In this document: positions 54,474-62,035 of the stretch, one piece after another
Layout of the letters: every line of letters begins with the position of its first letter
How positions within the stretch are numbered: position 1 is the first letter of the stretch
NCBI GenBank assembly: GCA_018052735.1
Contig: JAGPMT010000012.1
Location: 1-62,035 of the forward strand
Direction: 5' to 3'
Origin: Phycisphaerae bacterium
GTDB lineage: Bacteria > Planctomycetota > Phycisphaerae > Sedimentisphaerales > Anaerohalosphaeraceae
DNA length: 62,035 bases
Made by a program: the position numbers and the translations under genes
The notes under the pieces: generated by a model
The model's input: the letters and a program-made list of their open reading frames with translations, nothing else
Told to the model about the DNA's origin: nothing
Databases searched by the model: none

Positions 54474-54783
54474 GCACTGTGTATTTTGTATCAATTTCAC
54501 CGTTATTTAAAATCAGAATCCAATATGTCTTGAAGTTGCCGTTTCCTATTGACGACTTGCTGCACGGTTTAAATCTTGATAACCTTGCCAAGCTGGGAAT
54601 CTTCGGGCCGCATATCGGATTGCGGGAAGGAATAGTGGATAAGACAATTTTACGCTTAAAAGCTCTGCGACGGTCTGTATTTTCTTAATGATTAAAAAAA
54701 TCTTGGCCTGAGGACTTTGGCGGGGCACAAATTTAAGCATTTCCTAAAATCGCAAGTTGCGATTTCATTTGAACTTACAGCAC
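54474..54783. other. Intergenic region, no gene seen
   Basis: A 69-codon frame (54479-54688) has no ribosome-binding site or family match and is probably chance. Confidence 0.5.
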
Positions 54784-54857
54784 TGGGCGATACAGGATTC
54801 GAACCTGTGACCTCACGGGTGTGATCCGTGCGCTCTAACCAGCTGAGCTAATCGCCC
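54784..54857 (-). tRNA. tRNA-Val (anticodon CAC)
   Basis: 74 nt on the minus strand. Acceptor GGGCGAT/ATCGCCC with discriminator A, D-arm GCTCAGCTGGTTAGAGC, anticodon stem CACGG/CCGTG with loop ATCACAC (CAC, reads GUG), T-arm CAGGTTCGAATCCTG. CCA is not encoded. Confidence 0.95.
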
Positions 54858-55213
54858 CGAAAAAACTGATTTAAGCATAGCCGCACTGGGCTGTCAAGCA
54901 GTTTCCCTTTCCCCTGCAGGCATATTGTCAAAACGGCTGTTTATACACCGTATAAAAGACAAAAAAAATATCATGAAAGACCGATAAAGTATTTATTTTT
55001 TGAGTAATTTATGGATTTTTTTAGGATTCTGAAATAAAATCAGTAAAATTTCGGATAAAAAGGCAGTAATTTGCTATAATACGCTTAATGGCTTCGGGGT
55101 GACAGCAAGCATATCAAAAAAATGACCGTTTTCAGGGCCGAAAACGGGGGACAATTCAGCGACGGATCCATTATACGAACACAATATGTGAATCGGCTTC
55201 GGAGAATGTAGCT
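54858..55213. other. AT-rich intergenic region with an extended -10 promoter
   Basis: No gene. Very AT-rich around 54960-55060. TGCTATAAT at 55072-55080 is an extended -10 box, about 134 bp before the next start; no good -35. Confidence 0.45.
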
Positions 55214-55492
55214 ATGCACGGTGATGAAATGGATCAGGCACACTTCCACGAAAAACTCTGCGAATTGCTGAATGATATCGATGGTGTAACGGCACCGGAG
55301 CAGGACAAAGTAATCCGGCTGGCCAAAAAGACCAAAGAAGGGCACGAATTGCTGCAGAAAAAACTGATCAATCTGCAGCAGTCGCTGGATTCACTACGGC
55401 TAGGCATCAAATATCTGATTTTTGATTTGGAGGCCACCCGCCGGGAGAATAATGAGCTTCGCAAGCGTCTGGAGCAAGAACCGCCGCATTAA
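55214..55492 (+). CDS. Small coiled-coil protein
   Basis: 92 aa. No signal or membrane segment. Predicted all-helical; heptad-like leucines run through LLQKKLINLQQSLDSLRLGIKYLIFDLEATRRENNELRKRL, so a coiled-coil dimer is likely. No family recognised. GGAG lies 10 nt before the ATG at 55214; a second in-frame ATG at 55229 is possible. Between tRNA-Val and nnrE. Confidence 0.7.
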   Translation: MHGDEMDQAHFHEKLCELLNDIDGVTAPEQDKVIRLAKKTKEGHELLQKKLINLQQSLDSLRLGIKYLIFDLEATRRENNELRKRLEQEPPH

Positions 55493-55638
55493 AAGAATCT
55501 GCGACAGACGGTTGCAAACAACACAGCAGTTATGCCGCCGGCTGTGGAGGGGTGTTTGACTGCTTTGAATGTGCGCCGTGCGGTCTATCAAGCCTATCAA
55601 CTCTGTACTTTCAATTTCTGCAGAATCGTGTATATTTA

Positions 55639-55667
55639 TTGACAGCGGTTCCTTTGGAAGGTGCGAT
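55639..55667 (+). promoter_or_regulatory. Probable promoter of nnrE
   Basis: TTGACA (55639-55644), 17-bp spacer, TGCGAT (55662-55667), 41 bp before the nnrE start. Perfect -35, weak -10. Confidence 0.45.
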
Positions 55668-55708
55668 GTTGCCGCCTTATTGCCTCGATTGGTCAAAAAG
55701 GAAAAGCG

Positions 55709-56422
55709 ATGAAGGAATGGACCAGAGACAACACGAGTGAATTTGCTGTAATGACACGTCAGCAAGTGCGGGAGTTTGATGCTTGGGCTATTGGCCAGAT
55801 GGGCATTCCCGGCATTGTATTGATGGAAAATGCCGCACGCGAGGCTGCCGAGGTGATTTTACGCTTATGGCCCAAAGAGAGGGTTTGTATTTTTTGCGGC
55901 GGGGGCAATAACGGCGGCGACGGCTTTGCCATAGCCCGGCATCTGTATAATCACGGCATATCTGTGCAGCTGGCGGTGTGTGCCGATCCGGCCAGAATTA
56001 AAGGAGATGCCCGCATCAACTATGATATCTGCCGTGCCCTGAAACTGCCGATGGAGGTACTGGACATCTTGTCTGCCGATATGCAGCAGGGGGTGCAAAA
56101 AGCGGCCGAATCCTACGGTCTGCTGGTAGATGCTCTGCTGGGAACGGGGATGCAGGGCGAACTGGCAGATAGCATGATACGGCTGATTAGCGTCTTAAAT
56201 GCCTGCGGTCGGCCGATTGCGGCGGTCGATATCCCCTCCGGCCTCGATTGCGATACAGGCCTGCCGCTGCCTGTGTGCATCGAAGCAGCGGCGACAATTA
56301 CGTTTGCGGCTATCAAAAAGGGCTTTACTGTTTGTCCTCAGTCCCGTCAGGCAACCGGACGGGTATTTGTGGCCGATATCGGGATTGTACCGGCATCCAT
56401 CAGAGCGACGGATTCTTATTGA
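55709..56422 (+). CDS. nnrE: NAD(P)H-hydrate epimerase, single domain
   Basis: 237 aa from the ATG at 55709 (AAGGA 6 nt upstream; the frame extends to 55661 without family similarity). Repairs NAD(P)H damaged by hydration by converting R- to S-NADHX. The YjeF N-terminal domain is complete: MENAAREAAEVI, GGGNNGGDGFAIARHL, VDALLGTGMQGEL, DIPSGLDCDTG and TFAAIKKGF. The ADP-dependent dehydratase domain usually fused in bacteria is missing, so it must be encoded elsewhere. Its 3' end overlaps the next, convergent gene by 23 bp. Confidence 0.92.
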   Translation: MKEWTRDNTSEFAVMTRQQVREFDAWAIGQMGIPGIVLMENAAREAAEVILRLWPKERVCIFCGGGNNGGDGFAIARHLYNHGISVQLAVCADPARIKGDARINYDICRALKLPMEVLDILSADMQQGVQKAAESYGLLVDALLGTGMQGELADSMIRLISVLNACGRPIAAVDIPSGLDCDTGLPLPVCIEAAATITFAAIKKGFTVCPQSRQATGRVFVADIGIVPASIRATDSY

Positions 56423-57845
56423 GCAGCGTGTCGTAGCCGATAAGGTACATAAACCGCTTCTGATTGAAGACCGGAATACCCAGATTGTTGGCTTTTTTCA
56501 GCAGCCCATCATAGGCCTGAACCTTCTGCATCGACAGCTCATACCGCTGCTGGGCAAGGGGGTCTATATCCAAGTCATCCTGTGTCGGACGCGGCAGTGC
56601 GGCCGGCGCAGAACCGATGATCAGAAAATCCGTATCAACGGTTATATCTTCCACGACGCGTCCTCCCCAGCGCTCAATCAGTTCGCGAATTCGCTGGGCA
56701 CCGTCGGCATCAATGCGTCCGTCGTTGTTGAAATCAAACTCCCCGGCTACCACAAACTGGTTGGTGCCTTTGCGGTCCCAAATCAGGTTGACGACAAGGT
56801 CTTCCTTGACGACAGGATTCTTCTTGTCCGATTTGATGATCCGCGCTGCGCTGATCTGTTCGGAAACCTGAAAGACCTCTATCTCGGCCTTGTTCTGGCC
56901 TTCTTCCGAGACAGGTTTATTGCGGTCATAGATTGCAAATGTAAGCCCGCGATAGACATGGTCGTTAATGCCTGCATCCAAGTACACGATGCCGTTCTGC
57001 AGGTCCACGCGAATAATCTGGGCATCGGGCTGAAAGGCCTGCACTTCACGGTCAGGTTTGGGCTTAATGGCTTCCAGCTTGGACATGGCATTTTTCAACA
57101 GCATATCCGTCTGCCCCAGCTTCTTTTCGGTTTCCTGCAGGTCCAGTTGCTTCTGCCGCAGCTTGGCCTGTTCTTCTTCCAGTTTGTTCTGGAAAGTCTG
57201 CACCTGTTCTATTACAGAATCCTGCATGCTCTTCTGGAGCGAATCAAAACGGTTGCGTATGACATTCATCTCTGTCTGGAACTGGTCCAGTTCGGCAATG
57301 AATTTCTGCCGGTCCAGCTCGGATTTGGCGGCCGCATCGGCCAAGTCGCTCTGGAGGGTATCGTTGATGCTTTGCAGATTGGCCATCTGCTGCCGCGCCC
57401 CGTCGAGCTTCTGTTTGAGATCTTCAATCGTCTTCAGCAGCGCTACGCCGTTGAGACCGACGGCAGGATTGAGATCCTGACCGAGAACGTTTTTGTTCAA
57501 GGCATCGATTTTCATCGAGATTTCGTTGAATTTCACTGTGGCCGGAATATCAGCCGACGGCTGCTGACCGAGAATAAACGCATACAGGTCATCCACTACT
57601 TTCTGCATCGTTCCCAGATAGGTCTTGCCTTGTTCGGGTTTGCCGACGATTCGGACCAAAGCCGCTTTTTCAGAGGGATTGGCGATTTGATTAAGATCCT
57701 CTTTGGCCTGTTCCCACTGGGTGCGGTATTCTTCGGATTTGATGTAGTAAACAACGGCAAAAACTGCCGCGATGATAAACAATGCGACAAAGGTAATCAG
57801 CGCATACATCATTGTATTGCCTGAAGAAGACTGGCGAACAGCCAT
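56400..57845 (-). CDS. Membrane-anchored coiled-coil protein with BRCT-like C-terminal domain
   Basis: 481 aa. One N-terminal membrane helix (about 13-34) with the bulk outside the cytoplasm if orientation is N-in; a long coiled coil (about 140-265: LKQKLDGARQQMANLQSIND and QNKLEEEQAKLRQKQLDLQE); a beta-rich middle domain (about 275-360: VDLQNGIVYLDAGINDHVYRG); then a BRCT-like domain (about 362-472) with IRELIERWGGRVVEDITVDTD, FLIIG and LGIPVFNQKRFMYLIG. An EF-hand-like loop DFNNDGRIDADG (371-382) is inserted after its first strand. AAGGAG lies 8 nt before the ATG. I know similar proteins only as planctomycete hypotheticals. The domain assignments are pattern-based. Confidence 0.78.
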   Translation of the reverse strand: MAVRQSSSGNTMMYALITFVALFIIAAVFAVVYYIKSEEYRTQWEQAKEDLNQIANPSEKAALVRIVGKPEQGKTYLGTMQKVVDDLYAFILGQQPSADIPATVKFNEISMKIDALNKNVLGQDLNPAVGLNGVALLKTIEDLKQKLDGARQQMANLQSINDTLQSDLADAAAKSELDRQKFIAELDQFQTEMNVIRNRFDSLQKSMQDSVIEQVQTFQNKLEEEQAKLRQKQLDLQETEKKLGQTDMLLKNAMSKLEAIKPKPDREVQAFQPDAQIIRVDLQNGIVYLDAGINDHVYRGLTFAIYDRNKPVSEEGQNKAEIEVFQVSEQISAARIIKSDKKNPVVKEDLVVNLIWDRKGTNQFVVAGEFDFNNDGRIDADGAQRIRELIERWGGRVVEDITVDTDFLIIGSAPAALPRPTQDDLDIDPLAQQRYELSMQKVQAYDGLLKKANNLGIPVFNQKRFMYLIGYDTLLNKNPSL

Positions 57846-57962
57846 ATTCCCGACTCCTTAAAAAGGGACTAATGATACATATTATTCCGCATTCATCTGT
57901 CAGCCGAAGACTGCCGGCGTTTTTGTAGTATCCGTTGTCGGACAGGATTCGTCAAGAAAAAC

Positions 57963-57992
57963 TTGTGTAAATTCAGGCCGTACAGCTATAAT
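57963..57992 (+). promoter_or_regulatory. Promoter of DUF2905 gene and rluB
   Basis: TTGTGT (57963-57968), 18-bp spacer, TATAAT (57987-57992); start near 57999, 25 nt before the ATG at 58023. Confidence 0.55.
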
Positions 57993-58022
57993 AGTGTCAA
58001 TGGTATTGGGATGGAGTGTTCT

Positions 58023-58259
58023 ATGCAGCAGGTTGGACCGGAACAATTCGGCAAGTGGCTGGCGGTGATGGGGCTGGGATTGACGGCAGCGGGTCTTTTT
58101 ATGCTGATGCTGGCCAAAATCGGCTTGTTCCGGCTTCCGGGTGACCTTCGTTTCGAGGGGGAAAACTGGAAGATCTTTTTCCCGCTGACAAGCTGTTTGG
58201 TGATATCTGTGATTGTTACAGTGGTATTTTGGCTGGTGCAGTATTTCGTCCGTAAATAG
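58023..58259 (+). CDS. DUF2905 small membrane protein
   Basis: 78 aa from the ATG at 58023 (GGAG 6 nt upstream; an ATG at 58011 overlaps that GGAG). Two membrane helices (about 9-31 and 50-74) with the family motif LGLFRLPGDLRFEGENWKIFFPLTS between them. Function unknown. Followed by rluB after 7 bp, so they are co-transcribed. Confidence 0.82.
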   Translation: MQQVGPEQFGKWLAVMGLGLTAAGLFMLMLAKIGLFRLPGDLRFEGENWKIFFPLTSCLVISVIVTVVFWLVQYFVRK

Positions 58260-58266
58260 GCGGTAT

Positions 58267-59052
58267 ATGACTAAAAAGATGCAAAAAATCAGAAAAGAAG
58301 ATGCTTCCGCCACGATAGGTCTTGTACGGCTGCAAAGAATACTTGCCTCTGCGGGTATTGACTCCCGACGCAAATGCGAAGAACTCATTCGCGAAGGGGC
58401 GGTTACCGTCAACGGCCGGATTATTCAGGAATTGCCGGCTTTTGCAGATCCGCAGCACGACGACATACGGGTAAACGGTCAGCGGATTCGAAAGCCCCAG
58501 AAAGTCTATTTCCTCCTCAACAAGCCCAAAGGCGTGATTTGCACGAATATGGATCCCCAGCACCGCAAGCGTGCCATTGATCTTATCGATTGTTCAGAAC
58601 GTATTTTCTGCGTCGGCCGGCTGGATGCCGATACCACCGGCGCTATTATTCTGACCAACGATGCGGAACTCACCAACAAGCTGACGCACCCCCGCTATGA
58701 ACTGCCGAAAACCTATCAGGTTGTTGTGCGCGGACGAATGGAAGGAGAAGATGTAGAAAAGCTCAAAAAAGGCGTCTGGCTTTCAGACGGCAAAACCGGT
58801 GCTGCTTCCGTAAAAATATTACGTAAAACCAATCTGGAGACAATGCTGCAAATCACTATCCGCCAAGGCCTCAACAGGCAGATTCGGCGAACGCTGGCGG
58901 CCTTGGGCTATAAAGTTAAATCCCTCAAACGCACCCAGATTGGCGATATTGTTTTGAAGGACATTCCTGTGGGCGGATACAAGCGGCTGACTGCTGCACA
59001 AATTGCCTATTTGAAGCGTGCGACAGAGTCTGCCATTGACAGACAAGCTTAA
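58267..59052 (+). CDS. rluB: 23S rRNA pseudouridine synthase (RluB/RsuA family)
   Basis: 261 aa from the ATG at 58267. S4 RNA-binding domain (about 19-75: VRLQRILASAGIDSRRKCEELI) then the RsuA-type catalytic domain with the Asp in GRLDADTTGAIILTND and the end motif RQGLNRQIRRTLAALGYKVKSLKR. RluB modifies helix 80 region U2605 of 23S rRNA in E. coli; RsuA or RluE/F specificity cannot be excluded. The short N-terminal extension (KKMQKIRKEDASA) is basic. Its position just before the 23S gene may be coincidence. Confidence 0.88.
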   Translation: MTKKMQKIRKEDASATIGLVRLQRILASAGIDSRRKCEELIREGAVTVNGRIIQELPAFADPQHDDIRVNGQRIRKPQKVYFLLNKPKGVICTNMDPQHRKRAIDLIDCSERIFCVGRLDADTTGAIILTNDAELTNKLTHPRYELPKTYQVVVRGRMEGEDVEKLKKGVWLSDGKTGAASVKILRKTNLETMLQITIRQGLNRQIRRTLAALGYKVKSLKRTQIGDIVLKDIPVGGYKRLTAAQIAYLKRATESAIDRQA

Positions 59053-59211
59053 AAGGCTGGCCGCAGGATAACCGATTTCTGTTGGAAAGAATATCTGTGA
59101 TTTTGGCCTGCTGAATACGGAATTATCGGTCGGAAAATGACAAAAATGTTGAAACCAGCCGGCGGCGGCATTCTGGAACAAAAAATTTTTTATTTTTTTT
59201 AAAAATTACTG

Positions 59212-59239
59212 TTGACGAAACGGCAAAAGTAAATAAACT
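59212..59239 (+). promoter_or_regulatory. rRNA operon promoter P1 with UP-like A/T tract
   Basis: TTGACG (59212-59217), 16-bp spacer, TAAACT (59234-59239), preceded by a 28-bp tract of only A and T (about 59180-59207) that resembles an UP element. Confidence 0.55.
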
Positions 59240-59345
59240 GTAATTTCTTGATGCGGGTCAAACAGATAAAGTTTTCCGGCTGAGCCGAAAAAAAAGACGT
59301 TTCAGACGTTTTGAAGAAAAAATTACAAAAATTAAAATTTTGTAC

Positions 59346-59374
59346 TTGACCGCTCAAAAGTGCGAGAGTAACAT
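59346..59374 (+). promoter_or_regulatory. rRNA operon promoter P2
   Basis: TTGACC (59346-59351), 17-bp spacer, TAACAT (59369-59374). CGAGA/TCTCG flanks the -10 box, and the spacer carries half of a 10-bp inverted repeat (GCTCAAAAGT 59352-59361 with ACTTTTGAGC 59407-59416). Confidence 0.65.
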
Positions 59375-59432
59375 CTCGAGTCTTGAAATTCAGCAATGTC
59401 GCTGATTACTTTTGAGCAGCGGCATTTTTTAT

Positions 59433-59444
59433 TGCTCTTTTGAG
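59433..59444 (+). promoter_or_regulatory. boxA-like antitermination element in rRNA leader
   Basis: TGCTCTTTTGAG resembles the rrn boxA consensus TGCTCTTTAACA in its first eight bases. It lies about 52 nt into the P2 transcript, the usual place. Confidence 0.5.
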
Positions 59445-59521
59445 AAGTAAAGAATGAGTTGAGTCTTATAGAGCCGGCCGGGCCGGGGCAGCAGTGCACC
59501 GGAAGGTGGGCTTTGCAGGTC

Positions 59522-59595
<74 letters not shown>

Positions 59596-59597
59596 TT

Positions 59598-59710
59598 GAA
59601 TTGCATATCGGTGATTGACGATTGATGCGTGGGCCAGCAGCCGACGGCACAGCAGGCAGACGTCTCTGGATGGAATGAGTCAATCGTCAGATATCGGTTG
59701 GCAGCAATTC
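59598..59710 (+). repeat. Long spacer hairpin between tRNA-Ile and tRNA-Ala
   Basis: GAATTGC 59598-59604 with GCAATTC 59704-59710, and TGACGATTGA 59616-59625 with TCAATCGTCA 59680-59689: two perfect nested stems that span the whole spacer. Likely processing signal, for instance for RNase III. Confidence 0.6.
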
Positions 59711-59783
59711 GGGGACGTAGCTCAGTTGGGAGAGCGGCGGCTTTGCAAGCCGTAGGTCGAGAGTTCGAATCTCTTCGTCTCCA
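59711..59783 (+). tRNA. tRNA-Ala (anticodon TGC)
   Basis: 73 nt. Acceptor GGGGACG/CGTCTCC (one G-U), discriminator A; D-arm GCTCAGTTGGGAGAGC; anticodon loop TTTGCAA (TGC); T-arm GAGAGTTCGAATCTCT. Encoded directly after the spacer hairpin. Confidence 0.96.
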
Positions 59784-59807
59784 GTGGACTCAATATCAAA
59801 AACGAGT

Positions 59808-59867
59808 TTGTCAGCTGTCAGTACCAAGCAATGGACTGGCGGCTGCTGACAATAAGCTCTTTGACAA
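59808..59867 (+). promoter_or_regulatory. Hairpin plus boxA element before 23S rRNA
   Basis: TTGTCAGC 59808-59815 pairs with GCTGACAA 59845-59852; 3 nt later GCTCTTTGACAA (59856-59867) closely matches boxA. A second boxA in front of 23S is also found in E. coli rrn operons. Confidence 0.6.
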
Positions 59868-59994
59868 GTGCATAGCGGATATTTCTGTAGAATAAGCAAT
59901 TGGGTTGTGTATTCTGTACACATCCAGCTGCAATTTCAACAGACAGAATTAGCAATAATTCTGGAATGAGCGTTTGTACACCAAACCTAAGAAC

Positions 59995-60014
59995 AATGAG
60001 CATGAAAGCTCATT
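59995..60014 (+). repeat. Perfect hairpin just upstream of 23S
   Basis: AATGAGC 59995-60001 with GCTCATT 60008-60014, loop ATGAAA. Probably part of the precursor processing region. Confidence 0.4.
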
Positions 60015-60044
60015 AGGCGAAGCCAGTCAATCTGTGATTGATAT

Positions 60045-62035
<1,991 letters not shown>

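Follow-up and report, generated by a model that had tools for sequence, protein, structure and literature searches.

A BRCT domain with a putative calcium-type loop at the end of a predicted membrane-anchored coiled-coil protein of Planctomycetota

BRCT is a textbook module of the DNA damage response, normally engaged in DNA repair inside the cell, and to our knowledge the BRCT domains of known function are all cytoplasmic or nuclear. In the window analyzed here (the whole stretch of 62,035 nucleotides, from a Phycisphaerae bacterium), the initial annotation described a transmembrane coiled-coil protein that ends in a BRCT-like domain with an EF-hand-like insertion, and suggested that this domain is outside the cytoplasm. 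Is the domain a BRCT, what is the insertion, and on which side of the membrane would they lie? The gene is an open reading frame on the reverse strand (57845–56400), which in a frame check on the window encodes 481 residues plus a stop and starts with ATG (coding 56403–57845, stop 56400–56402). It is flanked by a YjeF_N-type gene and a pseudouridine synthase gene. The YjeF_N-type gene (55661–56422; Pfam E-value of the product 1.2e-47) is convergent with it, the 3′ ends overlapping by 23 bases, and on the 5′ side a small frame (57963–58259, forward strand) is followed by the pseudouridine synthase gene (58213–59052, forward strand). A 541-residue open frame (56199–57824, forward strand) runs antisense to the gene and has a similar antisense counterpart in the homologous locus L109; it is probably a shadow ORF of the conserved gene. 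Near the end of the window (59522–62035, forward strand), tRNA-Ile and tRNA-Ala genes lie immediately 5′ of a 23S rRNA gene, which begins at 60045 and runs past the window end; no 16S rRNA was found in 54500–62035, despite the usual spacer tRNAs beside the 23S rRNA. Searching 72,556 plasmid records by tblastn produced no matches.

The protein can be divided into the following parts, all encoded on the reverse strand: (i) a transmembrane segment (residues 11–35; 57741–57815), an unbroken hydrophobic stretch whose hydrophobicity is conserved across the family and which lies within a predicted helix (residues 11–54); (ii) a helical region (residues 57–120; 57486–57677) with helices at residues 57–67, 76–92, and 102–120; (iii) a long helix of 123 residues (residues 136–258; 57072–57440), probably a coiled coil, which has several weak Pfam coiled-coil matches; (iv) a β-barrel resembling those of FlgT and MreC (residues 270–356; 56778–57038); and (v) the BRCT domain (residues 363–472; 56430–56759), which carries the loop DFNNDGRIDADG (residues 371–382; 56700–56735). 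The helices were taken from an AlphaFold2 model of the whole protein, which, like that of the C-terminal part (residues 262–481), was built on 49 homologues. The C-terminal model had a mean pLDDT of 85.2 and a pTM of 0.74; the whole-protein model had a mean pLDDT of 77.6 and a pTM of 0.40 and does not fix the relative placing of the parts. Three homologues, L043, L047, and L053, are longer (617, 605, and 553 residues) than the usual 460–485 residues, and in L043 and L047 the extra stretch follows the N-terminal part and precedes the long helix.

The structure prediction and Foldseek comparison bore out the initial annotation on the C-terminal domain: the predicted fold is that of a BRCT domain. 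In both models, residues 363–469 follow the β1-α1-β2-β3-α2-β4-α3 order of the BRCT fold, in the whole-protein model with strands at residues 363–367, 396–398, 407–410, and 459–461 and helices at residues 382–393, 431–455, and 462–469. VIA-align 2 placed the BRCT domain of the DNA ligase DnlJ (9a6z_B) nearest to the C-terminal part (Z 9.5, 76 aligned residues, RMSD 2.0), followed by RFC chains (Z 8.0–8.8; human RFC1 BRCT 2ebu, Z 8.0) and Rad4 BRCT3-4 (Z 8.3). Foldseek likewise returned 2ebu (E 3.8e-4) and 9a6z_B (E 4.1e-4), and when PDB sequences were searched with a profile of the C-terminal half, the BRCTs of RFC1 and ligases came out on top (E 0.0018–0.0025). The window protein itself scores close to the curated PF00533 cut-off of 21.3 bits (19.9 bits by hmmscan and 22.6 bits in a genome scan). 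Relatives settle the matter: of 49 order-level members, 46 have a Pfam BRCT match with E ≤ 1 (best 2e-5), and of 86 members farther away, 63 have one with E ≤ 0.1 (best 1.6e-18). The genome scan found BRCT in two places only, LigA and the 481-residue protein, and hhalign related the LigA BRCT to the window protein with a probability of 95.2%. On the predicted fold, the LigA match, and the Pfam matches of relatives, the C-terminal domain of this transmembrane coiled-coil protein is a BRCT domain.

Comparison with the BRCT domains of LigA/DnlJ and RFC1 revealed a shared fold and element order, a Gly-Gly turn after helix 1 (G394 in 51 and G395 in 52 of 53 order-level proteins), and a "TDF..lG" strand 3; the family's end, "lgvpvfn..rF..liG", matches the ending of LigA. 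The Trp in helix 3 that is common in eukaryotic BRCTs is replaced by F465 in 53/53 order-level proteins, and the genome's LigA BRCT carries Phe at this site as well. Unlike the LigA and RFC1 BRCTs, the family domain (i) sits C-terminal to a transmembrane segment, a coiled coil, and a barrel; (ii) has an insert between strand 1 and helix 1 and about 20–30 extra residues before helix 2; and (iii) has no conserved Ser/Thr before the strand 1 Gly. The S/T-G pair after strand 1 and a helix 2 Lys are what we take to be the phosphate-binding residues of RFC1/BRCA1-type BRCTs. In these columns, mapped by eye in the 53 order-level proteins, Ser/Thr occurs at position 367 in merely 5, Gly at 368 in all 53, and Lys/Arg at 451 in 34, so binding of a DNA 5′-phosphate is not supported. 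Since the pocket of DNA- and phosphopeptide-binding BRCTs is not conserved, the domain fits a plain protein–protein interaction role.

The barrel (residues 275–352 in the model) is most similar to an LPHT ring chain (8z5n; Z 9.8, 77 aligned residues, RMSD 2.4; Foldseek E 1.4e-4) and to FlgT (3w1e; Z 9.6), a periplasmic flagellar ring protein. MreC, which itself has a transmembrane segment, a coiled coil, and a barrel, resembles the window protein in fold only (6zm0; Z 8.0). Because unrelated F1-ATPase barrels reach Z 8.0–8.7 against the same barrel, its kinship is uncertain. F1-ATPase and pyruvate kinase barrels also make up many of the Foldseek rows after the top four; pyruvate kinase, fourth of the four chains at E ≤ 0.001 (E 9.9e-4, probability 0.57), was taken as spurious. 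Pfam FlgT_C (PF16538) matches a minority of members weakly (11 of 49 order-level members at E ≤ 1, best 1.1e-4; 12 of 86 others at E ≤ 0.1, best 5.5e-6) and is absent from the Pfam matches of the window protein. The family also differs from FlgT and MreC in having one barrel followed by a BRCT domain, and flagellar context was not seen around the family genes. A single transmembrane segment followed by a coiled coil is shared with FtsB/DivIC-type bitopic proteins, and Pfam DivIC matches 5/86 members at E ≤ 0.1. The head of the family is much larger, and EzrA, whose topology is opposite to that of the FtsB/DivIC type, matches 4/86, so the likeness is one of coiled coils only. Matches to FapA, coiled-coil, and SMC-like Pfam families fell below the curated cut-offs and were taken as coiled-coil composition.

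The family is nearly phylum-wide in Planctomycetota, as judged from sequence profiles. Homologues of the 481-residue protein were found in 56 of 59 relatives, including all 34 with a completeness of 90% or more and a contamination of 5% or less. A C-terminal profile matched 250 of 294 Planctomycetota genomes (132/155 at the same quality), many of these matches spanning just part of the profile. Scanning genome contigs with the window protein, which reaches close relatives only, gave 4 loci, all in Planctomycetota/Planctomycetales/Phycisphaerae. The gene is single-copy in the window's order, and many genomes outside the class carry two adjacent same-strand copies (tandem paralogues in L090, L091, L092, L093, L094, L097, L098, and others). 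By eye and by weak profile matches, one copy in L091 and L092 seems to have a further BRCT-like stretch at its end. From the sets analyzed, L031–L034 (same-identity duplicates of L004, L002, L006, and L005), L058 (broken frame), and L059 (partial) were dropped. The partial L113 stands outside the group counts and trees; L147, nearly identical to L088, was counted in the groups and kept out of the trees and alignment A3. Alignment A1 omits L051 (masked letters), L011, L050, and L053, and alignment A2 omits L043, L047, L051, and L053.

In 48/53 proteins of the order, 14/14 class relatives outside the order, and 63/73 other proteins, the N-terminal tail together with the amine carries a higher net charge than the 15-residue stretch that follows the transmembrane segment. 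Lys+Arg counts alone favor neither side, being about equal or higher on the C-terminal flank (tail plus amine versus C flank, 2.25 versus 2.94 in the order, 2.36 versus 2.36 in the class, and 2.84 versus 2.86 in the rest; the tails average 1.3–1.8 Lys/Arg before the amine is counted). Several distant members (L112, L125, L127, L141, and others) have an "..ERG" tail directly before the hydrophobic segment, which we regard as reminiscent of pilin-like N-termini, though it lacks the usual Glu. Cys is scarce, at 0.12–0.19% after the transmembrane segment and 0.16–0.25% in the barrel and BRCT; in neighboring proteins it makes up 3.45% (NnrE), 1.79% (RluB), 0.89% (PolA), and 0.94% (CoaE), while a small set of Rho pieces is as poor (0.14%) and coiled coils are Cys-poor anyway. 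The Dx[DN]xDG motifs to which we assign the loop (see below) are strongly biased to periplasmic, surface, or secreted proteins according to the available part of Rigden et al. 2011 (PMC3123361), which names EF-hands, one transglutaminase, and some calcium blades as exceptions. Taken with the barrel, the net charge, scarce Cys, and loop type make an N-in, C-out topology likely. The converse, in which an N-out, C-in protein keeps its coiled coil, barrel, and BRCT in the cytoplasm and the BRCT tethers DNA or a repair or replication protein to the membrane, would agree with the site of action of known BRCT domains and with the presence of polA, coaE, or rho, divergently oriented on the upstream side, in 23 of the 40 loci sampled outside the class. 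Its charge pattern is compatible too: Lys/Arg near the membrane segment allow it, and four of the 73 non-class members have no Lys/Arg in the tail, three of them with Arg or His right after the membrane segment. We consider it unlikely, since 17 of the same 73 members carry three or more Lys/Arg in a short tail, which would be hard to translocate, and since the scarce Cys, the calcium-type loop, and the unconserved phosphate-binding columns speak against it.

The initial annotation had placed a calcium-loop-like segment between the first strand and helix of the BRCT domain, and the model locates it there, at residues 371–382, between the strand at 363–367 and the helix at 382–393. Among the 53 order-level proteins (the 49 aligned ones are 26–81% identical to the window protein), the DFNNDGRIDADG columns hold D in 51 at position 1, D in 26 and N in 21 at position 3, D in 43 and N in 7 at position 5, G in 49 at position 6, D in 45 and E in 5 at position 9, D in 38 at position 11, and G in 49 at position 12. 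The aspartates, on whose conservation the suggestion had hinged, are thus retained at positions 1, 5, 9, and 11. The 14 class relatives outside the order have D at position 1 and G at position 6 in 14/14, T or S at position 9 in 13/14, and E (8) or D (6) at position 12. The core D.[DN].[DN]G occurs in 43/53 order, 10/14 class, and 8/73 other proteins; the looser D-x-[DN]-x-[DN] occurs in 10/73 others, 10/10 of them in families f34, f75, and f84. Most of the remaining non-class proteins have a short plain loop (median length of the region 25 versus 32 residues). The motif matched 49 times at residues 355–400 and 6 times elsewhere in 25,671 residues, a count by position in which insertions may misplace true loops, so no weight is placed on it.

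The EF-hand part of the earlier description did not hold, though its likeness to a calcium loop with conserved Asp did. The element before the loop is a strand, where an EF-hand has a helix, and position 12, a usual ligand, is Gly in the order, so we assign the loop to the Dx[DN]xDG calcium type and not to the EF-hands; the strict 12-residue EF-loop pattern fits 11/14 class, 2/53 order, and 0/73 other proteins. In sequence terms, the loop agrees with the wider Dx[DN]xDG group of calcium loops: it shares with the loops in the available part of PMC3123361 the D1-x-[DN]3-x-D5-G6 core and an acidic or hydroxyl residue at position 9, and differs from the known ones described there in lying between BRCT strand 1 and helix 1 and in that its metal binding is putative. 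The word BRCT is absent from the main text of PMC3123361. An acidic surface loop with no bound metal, conserved for structure, would explain the Gly at position 12, the homologue L051 (1961–3319), which has the rest of the BRCT domain without seven acidic-loop residues and so provides a natural loopless control, and the degenerate loops of L040 and L075. Against this rather improbable reading, the loop preserves the 1-3-5-6-9 calcium-loop spacing, and all 14 class relatives carry E or D at position 12, though the strict pattern fits 11 of them.

In a tree of 100 proteins, those of the order (every fourth of the 53 rows, 14 in all), the class, and families f34, f75, and f84 form one clade of 37 rows (support 99/94); when the loop columns were removed, the same grouping was recovered, though with lower SH-aLRT support (98/75). 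Mapped on the tree, the loop label takes three changes, which can be read as one gain and two losses; because the trees were midpoint-rooted, we infer a gain rather than a loss. That the proteins with the loop group in this single clade makes one origin probable, in the ancestor of the window's class and families f34, f75, and f84.

We also compared gene neighborhoods in 40 loci outside the class, picked by hand among the phylum matches that ranked high, in most cases a single one from each family, and so not a random sample. In 27 of these loci, the family gene is followed by the co-directional twin-arginine gene tatC, whose tblastn match is at most 1.1 kb from it. A YchF-type GTPase gene and then cinA often come next. 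The identity of tatC was established by Pfam in 3/3 checked cases (E 7e-57 or better) and in the others by tblastn to those or close ones; in L132 it is visible only via the longer stretch L163. The order family gene, tatC, YchF-type GTPase, cinA, divergent from polA/coaE/rho, was observed in many loci of distinct families (L112–L151). TatC is listed in PMC2881027, where the FecR domain of Kuenenia TatC is placed outside the cytoplasm; the word BRCT does not occur in the available portion of that article. A role as an accessory to Tat export, in which the protein acts outside the cytoplasm from its membrane anchor as a chaperone or quality-control factor alongside TatC, would account for the recurrent position directly upstream of tatC, but we hold it improbable because tatC is not beside the gene in 9 class, 9 order, and the f34/f75/f84 loci with long flanks, because the YchF, CinA, and polA neighbors make a functionally mixed locus, and because no Tat-specific motif was found in the family protein.

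We therefore favor, at about even odds (a probability of roughly 0.5), a bitopic envelope scaffold with a barrel–BRCT head that is nearly phylum-wide in Planctomycetota. It builds on the computed domain order, the BRCT fold, the conservation of the loop and its probable single origin, and the recurrent tatC neighbor. In such a scaffold, the N-terminal segment would anchor the protein in the cytoplasmic membrane with its N-terminus inside, and the 123-residue helix would form a parallel, rigid coiled coil of approximately 18 nm (at 0.148 nm per residue), able to span the periplasm. The FlgT/MreC-like barrel and the BRCT domain would form a head that serves as a protein–protein interaction module and not in DNA repair. 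The Dx[DN]xDG loop, probably gained by the ancestor of one clade and separating BRCT strand 1 from helix 1, would most likely bind one calcium ion and stiffen or gate that face of the head. Counted against the scaffold are the neutral Lys+Arg counts, the four members with no Lys/Arg in the tail, the equally Cys-poor Rho pieces, the divergent polA/coaE/rho genes (which could hint at DNA), the absence of an adjacent tatC in class and order loci, the Gly at loop position 12, the cytoplasmic or nuclear location of BRCT domains of known function, the barrel Z-scores near 8 that F1-ATPase barrels reach too, and the pTM of 0.40 of the whole-protein model. The fuller version, in which a BRCT domain was recruited to the periplasm as the head of a structural scaffold protein and came in one clade under the control of a calcium loop gained once, is offered as a tentative and somewhat doubtful proposal.

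Taken singly, BRCT domains, Dx[DN]xDG loops, barrels of the FlgT/MreC kind, and bitopic coiled coils are all known elements. In a small literature search, their nearly phylum-wide combination was not described, and no title described an extracytoplasmic BRCT domain or a calcium loop in a BRCT domain. As far as we know, much of the usual machinery for division and wall elongation is missing from Planctomycetota cells, and their own division and envelope machinery is poorly understood. If true, the scaffold reading would show the BRCT fold recruited to the cell envelope in most sampled genomes of one phylum, and the calcium-type loop within the domain suggests work in the envelope rather than on DNA. 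The gene, single-copy in the window's order, would lend itself to tests of this reading.
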